Program-made: the position numbers and the translations under genes | Notes under the pieces: model-generated | Databases searched by the model: none | What the model saw: the letters and a program-made list of their open reading frames with translations, nothing else | Told to the model about the DNA's origin: nothing | Source of the DNA: Martelella radicis | GTDB taxonomy: Bacteria; Pseudomonadota; Alphaproteobacteria; Rhizobiales; Rhizobiaceae | NCBI RefSeq assembly: GCF_014196625.1 | Contig: NZ_JACIDZ010000002.1 | Location: forward strand, 124,001-188,000 | Length of the DNA stretch: 64,000 nt | Direction of reading: 5' to 3' | In this document: positions 11,741 through 25,120 of the stretch, one piece after another | How positions within the stretch are numbered: the stretch's first letter is position 1 | How the letters are laid out: every line of letters starts with the position of its first letter

Positions 11741-13543
11741 ATGAGCAAGCTGACCCGTTTTTCCGTCGCCCCACTCTCGGACATGACGCGGCGGCTAGCC
11801 GACGTCGCCTTCGAACGCGAGGAACCCGATCTCGTCATCACCGGCGCGCGCGTTCTATCGACCTATTCGGAACGGATGCTGGATGACCGCGAGATCTGGA
11901 TTTCCGGTGGACGCATCGCCGCGATGAAGCCGGCCGGCGCCTATCTTGGCAAGGCGGCAGATGTCTACGACGTCAAGGGCGGCATCATCGCGCCCGGCCT
12001 GGTGGATCCGCATCTGCATATCGAATCCAGCATGGTGACGGCCTGCGCCTATGCCGAGGCAGCCCTCCTGAACGGCACCACGACGATTTTCTGCGACAGC
12101 CACGAGATCGGCAACGTCATGGATGTCGAGGGTGTGGAAGCCATGCTGGAGGACGCCCGCGAGGCGCCGCTTTCGATCTTTCTCACCGTTCCGAGCACGG
12201 TTCCCGCCACCAGCCCCGACATGGAAACCGCCGGCGGCGACCTGACGCCGGAAAAGATCGCGAAGATCTTCGACCGCTGGCCGGAAGCCGTGGCGCTTGG
12301 CGAGAAGATGGACTTCGTGCCCGTCGCCATGAGCGACGAGCGCTCGCATGCCATCATTGCCGAATCACTGAAGCGCGGCCGTCCCGTTTCCGGTCATGTC
12401 TATGGCCGCGATTTCGTTGCGGCCTACGCTGCTGCAGGCGTCACCGACACCCATGAGGCGATCGATCGCGAGATCGCCAATGACCTGATCGAAGCCGGTG
12501 TGTGGATCTTCCTGCGCGGCGGCCCGCCGACGACGCCCTGGCATTCTCTGCCCGAGGCGATCAAGGCGATCACCGAACTTGGCGCATCGCACAAGCGCGT
12601 TGCCGTCTGCACCGACGACCGCGACGCCGACGATCTCCTGATGTTCGGCCAGGACTGGGTGACGCGCCAGGCGGTCAAGGCCGGCATGAAGCCGGAACAG
12701 GCCTGGTCGATGGGCTCGCTCCACGGCGCCACCCGCTTCGGCATGGGCGACGAGATCGGCGGGCTTGGCGGCGGAAGGCGCGCCGACATCGTGCTGCTCG
12801 ACGACACGCTGAAGCCGGTCAACACCTGGTATGGCGGCGAGCTTGTCGTGGAAGACGAGAAGGTGACATCGCTGCTCGACGAGGCCCTTTCCGAGCGCTA
12901 CCGCTATCCCGACGCCGCCTATCACACGGTGAAGCTGCCGAAAGAGGTCAAGCTGACGCCAGATCTTCCGACCGAGCGGGTCGTCGCCCATTGCATTCGC
13001 ACCGAACTGCCCGGCATCACGCTGATCCACGACAAGATCGAGCTCGAACTGGCCAATGACTGGCAGGACCATTTCGACCGGCACGACCTCTGCTTTGTCT
13101 CGGTGATCGAGCGCCACGGCAAATCCGACGGCAATGTCGCCAACGGCCTGCTGTCCGATTTCTCGCTGAAGCGCGGCGCGGTCGCATCATCCGTCGGCCA
13201 TGACAGCCACAACATCATTGTTGCCGGCACCAACGAGGCCGACATGCAGGTGGCTGTTCGCGCGATCGAGGAGAGCCAGGGCGGCGTCTGTGTGGTCAAT
13301 GAGGGCAAGGTCCGCGCCATGGTCGAACTGCCGGTCGCGGGCCTTCTCTCCGACAAGCGCGTCCACGATGTCGCCGACGCCGTGCGCGTGCTGAAGCTCG
13401 AATGGGAGGAGGCAGGCTGTGCCATCCCCTATATGGGCTTCAACCTCATCCCGCTCTCCGTCATTCCCGAAATCCGCCTGACCGACAAGGGACTGGTCCT
13501 GGTGCCGGAGATGGAAGTGATTGATCTGTTCGAGACGGTTTGA
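11741..13543 (+). CDS. ade: Adenine deaminase
   Basis: Metal-dependent amidohydrolase of 600 residues that converts adenine to hypoxanthine plus ammonia in purine salvage. Seen features are the metal-binding PHLHIESS after GLVDP (near residue 90), [12 protein letters not shown], the long central GHVYGRDF segment, and the C-terminal domain with [10 protein letters not shown] typical of the Ade family. The length fits family members. The start [14 protein letters not shown] at 11741 is followed directly by conserved sequence. It is monocistronic as far as can be seen, with about 145 bases to the DsbA-like gene before it and a converging gene after it. Confidence 0.95.
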
Positions 13544-22371: not shown

Positions 22372-23726
22372 TGACCGGCGCGCCGCGACTTGAAGTCGGT
22401 TCCATCTCCTTTGACATGCGGCCTGTCGTCTTTCGCCTGCCGTTCCATTTCGGAAATACCGTGGTTACCGAAACCGACCAGGCCTTCGTTTCGGTGTCGA
22501 TTGCCGTCGGCGGCCAGCGGGCCGAAGGGCGCTCGGCCCAGTTGCTGGTGCCGCGCTGGTTCGACAAGCGCCCGACCCGCAGCAATGACGAGACAGTCGA
22601 GGATCTCCGGCTGTCGCTGTCGCATGCCTGCCGGCATGCCGAAACCATTGCCGGCGACACCGTAGCCGAAGCGACCACGCGGCTTCGCGCCGCCGTTGAA
22701 GCGGATATGCCCGCGACGCCGCGCCTTGCCGCTCATTTCGGCCCTGCCCTGGTCGAAATGGCGCTGATCGATGCGCTGTCGATCGCCTTCGGCCTCAACT
22801 TCGCCCAGGCCGCCCGGGCCGATCTCTTTGGCGTTGCCGCCATGGAGGCGCCGGATATCGCGCCGCAGGCCATCACCGCGGCCCTTGCGGCGATCCGGCC
22901 CCTCCCCGCGATCATGCCGCGACAGACCGTCGGCTTCGACGCGCCGCTGAGAGAGACCGAGGTGGCCGGCGATCACCCGGATGATGGCCTGCCCGTGAGC
23001 CTCGAGGCGATCATCCGCGCCACCGGCATCCGCGCCTTCAAGATCAAGCTTGCGGGCGACCCGGAGGCCGATATCGACAGACTTACCGCGATTGCAGGCC
23101 TTGTCGGGAACATGGACGGGTTGCGCGTGACGCTCGACGCCAATGAACAATATGCGCCCGACCGCTTTGCCGGTTTTCTCGATATGCTGTTTGCCGACGA
23201 TGCGCTTTCGCCCTTTCGCCAGGCTATCGGCTTCATCGAACAGCCCTTCCCCCGCGAGACGGCCCTCGCCCAGGGTATCGCGCCGGACCTTTGCCGTTTT
23301 CCACTGATCATCGATGAAAGCGATGATCATGACGGAGCCTTTGCGAGCGCGCTGGAGCGCGGGTGGTCGGGAACCTCGATCAAGAGCTGCAAGGGCGTCC
23401 TGCGCGCGCTTCTCAACTTCTGCCGCGTGAAGGCGGGAAGGGCTGAGGGCCGGAACCTGTTCATTTCCGCGGAGGACCTGACCTGCCAGCCCGGCCTTTG
23501 CTGGCAACAGGACACGATGGTGGCAGCGACGCTCGGCCTTCGCGACGTCGAGCGCAACGGCCATCATTTCGCCGGCGGAATGCAGGGCTGTGACGACCTG
23601 CAGAAGGCACGGCTCCTGTCCACCCATCCGGACATCTACCTGAAGCAAGACGGCCATATCGGGCTCAGAATCGAGGACGGGACGATCGCTGTCGGCTCGT
23701 TGTTCGTGCCCGGCTTCGGCCGGTAG
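22368..23726 (+). CDS. Divergent enolase-superfamily enzyme (mandelate racemase / muconate lactonizing type)
   Basis: A 452-residue protein with an N-terminal capping domain and a C-terminal barrel. Expected catalytic positions are visible: K225-I-K227 in FKIKLAGD, metal ligands D257 (TLDANEQY), E291 (FIEQPFPR) and D316/E317 (IIDESDD), and a sixth-strand lysine region SIKSCKG (K339/K342). Lysines on strands 2 and 6 fit the muconate-lactonizing/epimerase subgroup rather than strict sugar-acid dehydratases. The protein is longer than most relatives. As last gene of the operon (ATGA overlap) it could dehydrate or isomerise the acid that the DUF993 protein then cleaves. Confidence 0.82.
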   Translation: MMTGAPRLEVGSISFDMRPVVFRLPFHFGNTVVTETDQAFVSVSIAVGGQRAEGRSAQLLVPRWFDKRPTRSNDETVEDLRLSLSHACRHAETIAGDTVAEATTRLRAAVEADMPATPRLAAHFGPALVEMALIDALSIAFGLNFAQAARADLFGVAAMEAPDIAPQAITAALAAIRPLPAIMPRQTVGFDAPLRETEVAGDHPDDGLPVSLEAIIRATGIRAFKIKLAGDPEADIDRLTAIAGLVGNMDGLRVTLDANEQYAPDRFAGFLDMLFADDALSPFRQAIGFIEQPFPRETALAQGIAPDLCRFPLIIDESDDHDGAFASALERGWSGTSIKSCKGVLRALLNFCRVKAGRAEGRNLFISAEDLTCQPGLCWQQDTMVAATLGLRDVERNGHHFAGGMQGCDDLQKARLLSTHPDIYLKQDGHIGLRIEDGTIAVGSLFVPGFGR

Positions 23727-23782
23727 CCGCCCCTTGTGCCCAATATTGAGGCGTCCGAAGCGAGCCTTGCGTTTTTTGCATA

Positions 23783-23801
23783 GGGGCATTGCTTTTGCCC
23801 C
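23783..23801 (+). terminator. Stem-loop after the enolase-superfamily gene
   Basis: GGGGCA and TGCCCC flank a 7-base loop, 57 bases past the stop codon. There is no T-run after the stem, so termination would be weak or Rho-assisted. A TATATAA element at 23827-23833, just downstream, may belong to the promoter of the DUF1127 gene. Confidence 0.4.
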
Positions 23802-23876
23802 ACTGCCTCACCCCGAAGCGTCGGCGTATATAAGTATCAACAACAGCGAAGACGAAGCCAACAAAGGAGACCGGAA

Positions 23877-24020
23877 ATGAGCATGACCCGTTCGTTCAAC
23901 AACTGGCTCAAATACCGCGAGACCGTTACCGAGCTTGGCCGCATGAGCACCCGTGAACTGCACGACCTCGGCATCAATCGCGAAGATATCCGTCGCGTCG
24001 CCCGCAAGGCCGCGTTCTAA
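23877..24020 (+). CDS. DUF1127-family small protein, 47 residues
   Basis: The product starts MSMTRSFNNWLKYRETVTEL and ends with the family's RELHDLGINREDIRRVARKA motif, so this is a complete DUF1127 (YjiS-like) domain. An AAAGGAGA ribosome site lies 6 bases before the ATG. These tiny basic proteins are widespread in alphaproteobacteria and have been linked to RNA turnover and nutrient or stress adaptation. In Rhodobacter a DUF1127 gene is co-transcribed with CCUCCUCCC small RNAs, and the same arrangement follows here. The gene is too short for routine ORF cut-offs and easily missed. Confidence 0.93.
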   Translation: MSMTRSFNNWLKYRETVTELGRMSTRELHDLGINREDIRRVARKAAF

Positions 24021-24028
24021 GCAATTCC

Positions 24029-24049
24029 TTCGGCTCGCAAAAAGCCGAA
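24029..24049 (+). other. Stem-loop directly after the DUF1127 gene
   Basis: TTCGGCT and AGCCGAA form a 7-base-pair stem with an A-rich loop, 8 bases past the stop codon. No T-run follows. It may mark the processing boundary between the DUF1127 message and the downstream small RNA hairpins. Confidence 0.55.
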
Positions 24050-24060
24050 ACACATGTTTT

Positions 24061-24094
24061 CGGAGCCGCGCCCTCCTCCTCCCAGCGCGCTTCG
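24061..24094 (+). ncRNA. CcsR/cuckoo-type small RNA hairpin 1 (CCUCCUCCC loop)
   Basis: CGGAGCCGCGC (24061-24071) pairs with GCGCGCTTCG (24085-24094) with one bulged C and one G-U pair. It exposes the 13-base loop CCTCCTCCTCCCA. The anti-Shine-Dalgarno-like loop on a GC-rich stem is the defining trait of the CcsR/cuckoo small RNAs of alphaproteobacteria, which occur in tandem after DUF1127 genes. Processing ends are not determined. Confidence 0.85.
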
Positions 24095-24099
24095 ATTTG

Positions 24100-24132
24100 G
24101 ACCGGCGATCCTCCTCCTCCCAATCGCTGGTC
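24100..24132 (+). ncRNA. CcsR/cuckoo-type small RNA hairpin 2 (CCUCCUCCC loop)
   Basis: GACCGGCGAT (24100-24109) pairs with ATCGCTGGTC (24123-24132) through ten pairs, one of them G-U. It closes the loop CCTCCTCCTCCCA, identical over 13 bases to that of hairpin 1 while the stem is unrelated. Conserved loop and free-running stem argue that the loop is the functional part. Confidence 0.87.
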
Positions 24133-24142
24133 ATCATGATGA

Positions 24143-24181
24143 CGCCCACCGGATCCTCCTCCCCCGGTGGGCGTTTTCTTT
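24143..24181 (+). ncRNA. CcsR/cuckoo-type hairpin 3, doubling as Rho-independent terminator
   Basis: A perfect 10-base-pair stem CGCCCACCGG / CCGGTGGGCG closes a loop ATCCTCCTCCC and is followed by TTTTCTTTT. The loop keeps the CCTCCTCCC motif, so the last small RNA of the array also ends the transcript that starts before the DUF1127 gene. The remaining 24182-24319 holds two further short inverted repeats and no gene. Confidence 0.85.
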
Positions 24182-24319
24182 TGTCTTCTCCAGCGCACCA
24201 CAAACAATCAGGCCTTCCAAATCCGCGAAGTTGCGTTCGTTGAAGGCAAGCACGGCTCCTTGCCTGCGATCAGACGATCGCAAGCCTTCAGATTGTGTCA
24301 TGACATTATCGCCGGTCGC

Positions 24320-25120
24320 TCAACGCGGAGGCTGACCGGAGGTTGCCTGGATGAACTCGACCTCGCGCTCCGGCCGGATGATGGCGGCCGTCAGGCGGTC
24401 GGTGGCATAGGCGCCGGTATCGATCGAGATCACACCGTTTGCCATTTGCGGAACCTGCACGATCGTGTGGCCATGGACGATCCATAACCCGTCTCGCCGC
24501 GGCAAATGACCGAAGTCCTGATGGCCCCAGGTGAGATTGCGCTCGGGCTGTTCATCGAGCGGCATGCGCGGATCGGCGCCGGCGTGAACCACGGACATGT
24601 TTCCGCTCGACCAGACGAGCGGCAAGCCTCTCAGCCAATCGAGCTGCTCCTGTCCGAGGCTTTCGATGACTGCATCGCGCAGGCTGAAAATGTCTTTCCG
24701 GCCATAGGCATCGCCCGCAGGACCGAAACTGGCGACGGTCTGCAGGCCGCCGTAACGCAGCCAGCGCTCGCCGCTCTTTTCGGGCTTGTCGAGAAACTCG
24801 AGAAACATCTCCTCGTGATTGCCCATCAGGCAGGCGATATCGCCGCGCTCGCGCTGACGGTCGAATAACATTTTGAGCACCTGGGCCGAATGTTCTCCCC
24901 GATCGACATAGTCACCGACATGCACCACGGGCATACCCGGGACCATAGCATCGATCTTCTCCCACAACCGGTCGAGATTGTCGGCGCAGCCGTGAATGTC
25001 ACCGATCGCGACGAAAGCCTCTTCGGGCTTGGGCATGCCGCCGCGAAAACCCGGCGTCGGCCCCGGGCGCGGCGCGGATCTCGGCTTCGGCGAGGTGAAC
25101 AGGCGGCGTAGAGATTTCAT
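24320..25120 (-). CDS. PPP-family metallophosphatase (serine/threonine protein phosphatase-like)
   Basis: A 266-residue cytosolic phosphoesterase with all core PPP motifs: GDIHG (in AIGDIHGCADN), GDYVDRG, GNHE (in LMGNHEEMF), and later histidines in VVHAG and VHGHT. Two metals in this site would hydrolyse phosphomonoesters. Related bacterial enzymes act on phosphoproteins or on diadenosine tetraphosphate. I choose the ATG at 25120 (MKSLRRLFTSP) since the upstream extension to 25201 is poorly conserved in character and lies in the intergenic repeat. The gene is divergent from addB and converges with the small RNA array. Confidence 0.87.
   Translation of the reverse strand: MKSLRRLFTSPKPRSAPRPGPTPGFRGGMPKPEEAFVAIGDIHGCADNLDRLWEKIDAMVPGMPVVHVGDYVDRGEHSAQVLKMLFDRQRERGDIACLMGNHEEMFLEFLDKPEKSGERWLRYGGLQTVASFGPAGDAYGRKDIFSLRDAVIESLGQEQLDWLRGLPLVWSSGNMSVVHAGADPRMPLDEQPERNLTWGHQDFGHLPRRDGLWIVHGHTIVQVPQMANGVISIDTGAYATDRLTAAIIRPEREVEFIQATSGQPPR

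Follow-up and report, generated by a model that had tools for sequence, protein, structure and literature searches.

A short DUF1127 gene of Martelella radicis is followed by three hairpins that each carry CCUCCUCCC in the loop, and we read the two together, with a probability of roughly two in three, as a CIN1-type locus: one transcription unit comprising the gene and an αr14 small RNA, placed under an LsrB/VtlR-type regulator, with a transcript that would be processed to yield an RNA that blocks ribosome-binding sites. Positions refer to the window, i.e., the whole stretch of 64,000 nucleotides that was analyzed, and the features are collected in Table 1. The combination of a short DUF1127 gene and CcsR-like RNAs is already known as the CIN1 locus, which is frequent in Alphaproteobacteria (Reinkensmeier and Giegerich 2015, as cited in PMC10253847). 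The Martelella locus, in which the DUF1127 stop codon lies 34 nt 5′ of the CCUCCUCCC RNA array, has the same arrangement as the CIN1 locus and its cuckoo RNA family, as defined in that citing paper, and is a further, ordinary, well-formed member.

Table 1. Features of the DUF1127-αr14 locus, with positions in the window
Feature	Position	Strand	Evidence
LsrB/VtlR-type (LysR family) operator, TGCGTTTTTTGCATAGGGGCATTGCTT, predicted	23768..23794	+	PWM 22.4
CTGCCT, candidate -35	23803..23808	+	identical in 17/17 aligned Martelella promoters; weak consensus match, no better than shuffles
GTATAT, candidate -10	23826..23831	+	TATAT identical in 17/17 aligned Martelella promoters
DUF1127 gene, 47 aa	23877..24020	+	Pfam PF06568, 54.4 bits; dN/dS versus positional orthologues
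Hairpin after DUF1127 stop, without CCUCCUCCC	24029..24049	+	3/200 shuffles fold as well
αr14 small RNA (RF02344)	24055..24179	+	104.9 bits, cut-off 58.8, E 2.5e-18
Hairpin 1, motif 24075-24083	24060..24095	+	fold; 84.5% of cells paired, 5/11 pairs changed on both sides
Hairpin 2, motif 24113-24121	24100..24132	+	fold; 98.3% of cells paired, 7/10 pairs changed on both sides
Hairpin 3 with T-rich tail, motif 24155-24163; putative terminator	24138..24178	+	fold; 99.7% of cells paired, 3/14 pairs changed on both sides

The original prediction had named a CcsR/cuckoo array in a Hyphomicrobiales host. The host is indeed of that order, and the general arrangement stood, with anti-Shine-Dalgarno hairpins arrayed downstream of a DUF1127 gene, but the family is a different one. 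The αr14 covariance model of Rfam was matched over its full length (positions 1 to 123 of 123), and the layout is that of αr14, three hairpins with CCUCCUCCC unpaired in each loop. In contrast, the CcsR1 model (RF02791) gave only 37.4 bits on hairpins 1 and 2 and 18.3 bits on hairpin 3, below its cut-off of 65.3, a strict threshold that is passed by only 10 of the 248 genomes of family f25. By these model scores, the array is a member of αr14 (the NfeR1 family) and not of CcsR1, the two being clearly akin, and strict CcsR membership was dropped. It had also been expected that standard annotation would miss both the protein and the RNAs, which proved wrong, since Rfam calls αr14 and Pfam calls DUF1127. 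Elsewhere in the window, at 152-373, a cobalamin riboswitch was recognized with 128.6 bits.

Two published systems stand closest. αr14/NfeR1 (Smr14C2) shares the three hairpins with CCUCCUCCC loops, the variable stems, and the LsrB-type operator (PMC10746234; PMC7143759). NfeR1 is made as one RNA, 123 nt in length (PMC10746234), and its promoter lies directly before it, whereas in Martelella the DUF1127 gene is found between operator and RNA. The ccaF1-CcsR1-4 locus of Rhodobacter sphaeroides has the same succession of a DUF1127 gene and CCUCCUCCC hairpins; it is cotranscribed from an RpoHI/RpoHII promoter and processed by RNase E, and its CcaF1 protein has 71 residues compared with 47 in Martelella (PMC10253847). 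A CcsR locus in this strict sense, driven by RpoH and processed, with the aid of a CcaF1-like protein, into a number of distinct small RNAs, would agree with the gene order and with the weak CcsR1 matches. We nonetheless hold it to be very unlikely, as the score falls short of the CcsR1 cut-off and far exceeds that of αr14, the hairpins follow the fixed three-hairpin layout of αr14 instead of repeated two-hairpin units, and the RpoH1-like promoter match described below is at chance level.

The three consecutive stems with their CCUCCUCCC loops had been proposed from the sequence, and folding bore them out. Three hairpins form in 24050-24184, every loop displaying the motif, at a folding energy of -57 kcal/mol, compared with a mean of -35.7 (sd 3.25) for 200 shuffles, none of which equaled it (z -6.55), and the unpaired probability of the motif is 1.0 in all three hairpins. 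The longer form CCTCCTCCC is present once in each of the three loops on the + strand, and its total of four in the window compares with a mean of 0.64 and a maximum of 3 in 100 dinucleotide shuffles. The fourth occurrence is isolated on the minus strand (13404-13412), with no like motifs nearby. Loops 1 and 2 are identical over 13 bases (24072-24084 versus 24110-24122), as had been noticed, and the T-tail reported for the third stem is there as well: TTTTCTTTT follows the stem and presumably serves in termination. A terminator scan, with a loop range of 3 to 8, returned no entry for hairpin 3, the loop of which has 11 nucleotides.

Conservation was examined by aligning those of the 44 αr14-like Martelella loci that are in + orientation, 24 in all. 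Stem cells were paired in 94.5% of cases (36 to 56% when the alignment was slid), and 15 of 35 pairs had changed on both sides, compared with 10.2 in shuffles, 2 of 500 being as high. The motif columns are almost all invariant; a single row, L188, retains just two intact motifs. The array loops are conserved while the stems diverge, just as the original prediction had it and as already described for αr14 (PMC3927594; PMC10746234). The hairpins might instead serve the DUF1127 mRNA alone, as a 3′ UTR element for its protection, termination, or cis control, with no action in trans, as their position in the 3′ UTR and the terminator-like last hairpin would allow. However, the loop motif is conserved three times over, on covarying stems and far beyond the needs of termination, and αr14 members elsewhere have been proven to act in trans (PMC10746234), so that such a purely local role appears very improbable.

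αr14 scored above the cut-off in all 13 Martelella genomes examined; of 151 genomes in the wider family, 146 matched at E <= 0.001, and 137 were above the cut-off. One of the genomes grouped with the host's genus, G128, has a contig with sequence in common with L014, a named locus of Martelella mediterranea. The Martelella loci are of three types, namely (A) DUF1127-array, as in the window, (B) DUF1127-array-DUF1127, and (C) the array first, followed by at least one DUF1127 gene. All type-A loci of Martelella have DUF1127 directly 5′ of the array. The genome to which the window belongs carries three copies above the cut-off, one per type (C2, C24, and C4), along with a weak one-motif copy on C7 (46.7 bits). 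Another Martelella genome (G121) has three weak αr14-like matches on C54 (25-132, 470-577, and 914-1021; 47 to 50 bits), spaced about 445 nt apart, a triplet that resembles a tandem repeat of a shortened αr14 copy. Among the matches listed, 136 arrays have at least three motifs (three of them from the window's genome, the others from a pattern scan), and a DUF1127 gene lies within 300 nt upstream in 56, with 4 arrays too near the locus edge to judge. In five loci (L099, L052, L062, L083, and L105), one DUF1127 gene leads an array with 10 to 12 copies of CCUCCUCCC; three of these belong to named Rhodobacterales/Rhodobacteraceae genera, and two are unlabelled.

The gene itself, predicted to encode 47 residues, exceeds the Pfam gathering score for DUF1127 by a wide margin (54.4 bits versus 23.3). 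Related loci were collected with the αr14 model and not through the upstream gene neighbor; a search with the upstream enolase-like protein at E <= 1e-100 among 121 genomes of the family returned only the window's own copy. Five loci (L129, L130, L131, L133, and L143) are positional orthologues of the window copy by virtue of a common neighbor gene. Judged from a comparison of the protein with four positional orthologues (dN 0.000 to 0.009, dS 0.10 to 0.42), it is under purifying selection. The protein also matched 306 plasmid records in PLSDB; of the 25 homologues listed, 14 are annotated as DUF1127, 8 have no feature in the PLSDB table, which is itself incomplete, and 3 records are wholly unannotated. 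CcaF1 is an RNA-binding protein that assists the maturation of CcsR (PMC10253847), whereas in Agrobacterium short DUF1127 proteins have the sensor kinase PhoR as their target (PMC12501420). The Martelella protein could accordingly be an RNA-processing aid or a sensor-kinase partner, and its sequence favors neither.

An RpoH-dependent promoter had been suggested for this locus. The best match to the RpoH1 consensus, taken from S. meliloti (PMC8844928) and not from Rhodobacter, has 5 mismatches of 13, and 259 of 300 shuffles were as good or better; the RpoH1 promoter was dropped on these grounds. The RpoD consensus fared similarly (4 mismatches of 12, equaled or bettered by 181 of 300 shuffles) and was also dropped, and a consensus-type promoter scan of 23600-24400 on both strands returned no promoter. 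Since neither match is better than shuffles, the candidate -35 and -10 elements are called from their conservation. From the position of the -10 element, transcription would start near 23838.

What the region does contain, in place of an RpoH promoter, is a predicted LsrB/VtlR-type operator. It was first seen as a dyad on aligning 17 type-A promoters of Martelella and reads TGCG-N6-GCAT at 23768, one mismatch away from the TGCA-N6-GCAT site through which LsrB activates NfeR1 (PMC10746234). It likewise differs by one base from the abcR1-derived consensus GCAT-N3-TG-N3-T (PMC8844928). With a start near 23838, the dyad falls at about -70 to -57, and the LsrB site of NfeR1 is at -72 to -60 (PMC10746234).

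A 27-column position weight matrix (PWM) was trained on 33 named Hyphomicrobiales sites with Martelella left out. In the window it scored 22.4 at 23768-23794, compared with 11.5 at the next best place and 12.3 on the opposite strand of the site, and 0 of 1,999,950 random positions scored as high. A cut of 18, set by eye, was reached by 1 of the 1,999,950 random positions and, away from arrays, by 3 of 1,291,996 positions (L019, L072, and L111), equivalent to 0.0008 per 350 nt. Upstream of the held-out Martelella loci, 36 of 42 scored (43 examined) were at 18 or above, and five of the six below it lay at 16.6 to 17.4. A matrix of 47 sites, set aside in favor of this one because its training data included unlabelled loci (at least two of them, L096 and L115, being Rhodobacterales-like), gave 24.2 in the window, 38 of 42 in Martelella, 27 of 30 in f25, and 13 of 13 in Rhodobacterales, counting L060, which is named only Alphaproteobacteria.

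A strict operator pattern derived from type-A and type-B sites matched three times in the 4,985,483 bases of the genome, with no match for the reversed control, and each match precedes a DUF1127 gene: the window, the C24 copy, and L260 (C2:336695), the last of which was not yet known when the pattern was written. At L260 (from 1500), a DUF1127 gene of 47 aa (40.7 bits) stands on its own; the operator lies 131 bp upstream of it, and no CCUCCUCCC array was seen within 600 nt after the operator. A looser pattern built to include type C added the C4 copy alone; the presence of C4 follows from the construction, while the absence of others does not.

The same genome encodes an lsrB-like gene that adjoins two ar15/AbcR RNAs at C12; it is the sole gene at its level of similarity, the next relatives being 31 to 33% identical. 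Within this lsrB-abcR region (L197), the best PWM site is the abcR promoter (21.3), and LsrB controls abcR directly in S. meliloti (PMC8844928). The locus has a predicted operator upstream and an lsrB-like gene in the genome, as expected for a member of an LsrB/VtlR regulon. Among the genes that VtlR activates in Brucella and Agrobacterium are the DUF1127 genes BAB1_0914, BAB2_0512, BAB2_0574, and Atu1667 (PMC12595884; PMC7486931), which are likewise short and under an LsrB/VtlR operator; unlike for the Martelella gene, no small RNA array is mentioned alongside them in the available portions of these papers.

The operator was then sought at other alphaproteobacterial arrays. The named-locus scan covered at least 120 loci, 80 of which are listed with names. 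Of 145 arrays listed, 121 units were scored; the remainder comprised the 3 arrays of the window's own genome, 9 arrays short of three motifs, 6 with less than 350 nt upstream, 3 non-alphaproteobacterial records with coding-like periodic repeats, and 3 duplicates of one unit. Among the 121 units listed, a site with no more than one mismatch was found before 18 of 19 DUF1127-array units of Hyphomicrobiales, 11 of 11 such units of Rhodobacterales, and 30 of 46 array-first units of Hyphomicrobiales, about one-fifth to one-third of units being expected by chance. With the PWM at 18 or above, all 12 named Rhodobacterales units listed passed (L060 being counted as unknown), as did 27 of 30 CcsR loci of family f25. 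Among the units listed, array-first Hyphomicrobiales were mixed (29 of 46 passed and 17 failed, some having been training data), and 10 of 23 unlabelled array-first units passed, a set that includes some likely chance repeats. Given the high pass rates of DUF1127-led units compared with the mixed result for array-first Hyphomicrobiales, the predicted operator is characteristic of units led by DUF1127 but is not shared by all arrays. Five array-first loci of Mesorhizobium (L024, L025, L028, L039, and L059) have motif steps of about 35 to 37 nt and lack the operator; this class is perhaps under other control.

The assignment of f25 (L215-L251) to Rhodobacteraceae is drawn from CcsR1 scores and the 71-aa protein, and no 60-mers are common to L215-L251 and the named loci. 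One f25 locus, L222, has a CcsR1 score of 106.2 bits, a 71-aa DUF1127 protein, and the operator; its score and the length shared with CcaF1 suggest R. sphaeroides or a near relative. In each of the 12 Rhodobacterales genomes searched, one LsrB-like protein was found at E <= 1e-60. The first 68 residues, which form the DNA-binding domain, are 69 to 77% identical to the Martelella protein, compared with 30 to 35% for the remainder. The motif beside LsrB in the trxB neighborhood is present in 4 of 4 Hyphomicrobiales and 0 of 12 Rhodobacterales loci. As gene order at trxB is not common to the two orders, it is the DNA-binding domain that speaks for orthology of the Rhodobacterales LsrB.

On balance, we lean slightly toward the view that CIN1 loci across Alphaproteobacteria share control through an LsrB/VtlR-type operator, probably as an ancestral trait. 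In Rhodobacter, the operator may add to the published RpoHI/RpoHII promoter; within the partial coverage of the literature, no LysR regulator is reported for ccaF1-CcsR. Any novelty may lie in this joint LsrB-type control from Hyphomicrobiales to Rhodobacterales. If true, the common operator joins two literatures, that on NfeR1/VtlR in Hyphomicrobiales and that on ccaF1-CcsR in Rhodobacter, and it offers a direct test of which regulator controls such loci. The LsrB/VtlR-type switch responds to oxidative stress in related bacteria. If one redox-linked LysR regulator governs the small protein as well as the anti-Shine-Dalgarno RNA all the way from Rhizobiales to Rhodobacterales, RpoH accounts for CcsR control in Rhodobacter only in part, and the effects on oxidative stress, nutrient uptake, and nitrogen that have been described one by one for these components would have a common input.

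Between the DUF1127 stop codon and the array lies a further hairpin without CCUCCUCCC. Hairpins of differing sequence occupy this place in ten Martelella loci (the window and nine others; 0 to 9 of 200 shuffles as good), and none is found in 4 of 16 loci, a subgroup with short spacers (L132, L134, L147, and L150). By PWM, the 3-kb locus has no second operator, and none lies between the DUF1127 gene and the RNA. This fits, together with the post-stop hairpin, a single transcript that is cut after that hairpin. The RNA could alternatively have a promoter of its own, as NfeR1 does (PMC10746234), with DUF1127 as a mere neighbor under its own operator. The operator directly before the array in type-C copies of Martelella speaks for this, as does the fact that most array-first Hyphomicrobiales loci listed have no DUF1127 gene directly upstream. 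Yet only 34 nt separate the DUF1127 stop codon from the 5′ end of the RNA, the PWM gives no second operator, and the promoter scan gives no promoter, which makes a separate promoter improbable.

In the preferred reading of one transcription unit, an LsrB/VtlR-type LysR regulator would bind the operator and activate the weak promoter downstream of it (-35 at 23803, -10 at 23826), and a single transcript would run through DUF1127 and terminate at hairpin 3. A cut in the linker after the 24029-24049 hairpin would then leave the DUF1127 mRNA protected and release an RNA of about 125 nt, the three CCUCCUCCC loops of which would base-pair with ribosome-binding sites rich in GGAGG and thereby prevent translation. 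In S. meliloti, NfeR1 silences ntrB by pairing of its loops with the ribosome-binding region (PMC10746234), and by analogy the αr14 RNA of the window likely acts in the same way.

The arrangement GGGAGGAGG-N3-9-ATG occurs seven times in the genome (0 in the control), one occurrence being opposite an αr14 array and three preceding long ORFs. In these three, C10:161198 (L253), C17:29248 (L255), and C29:13035 (L258), the perfect loop complement GGGAGGAGG lies 3 to 9 nt before the start codon. Judged by eye, the respective ORFs encode a LuxR-type response regulator-like protein, an FAD-dependent hydroxylase-like protein, and a 293-aa protein, which we regard as target leads only.
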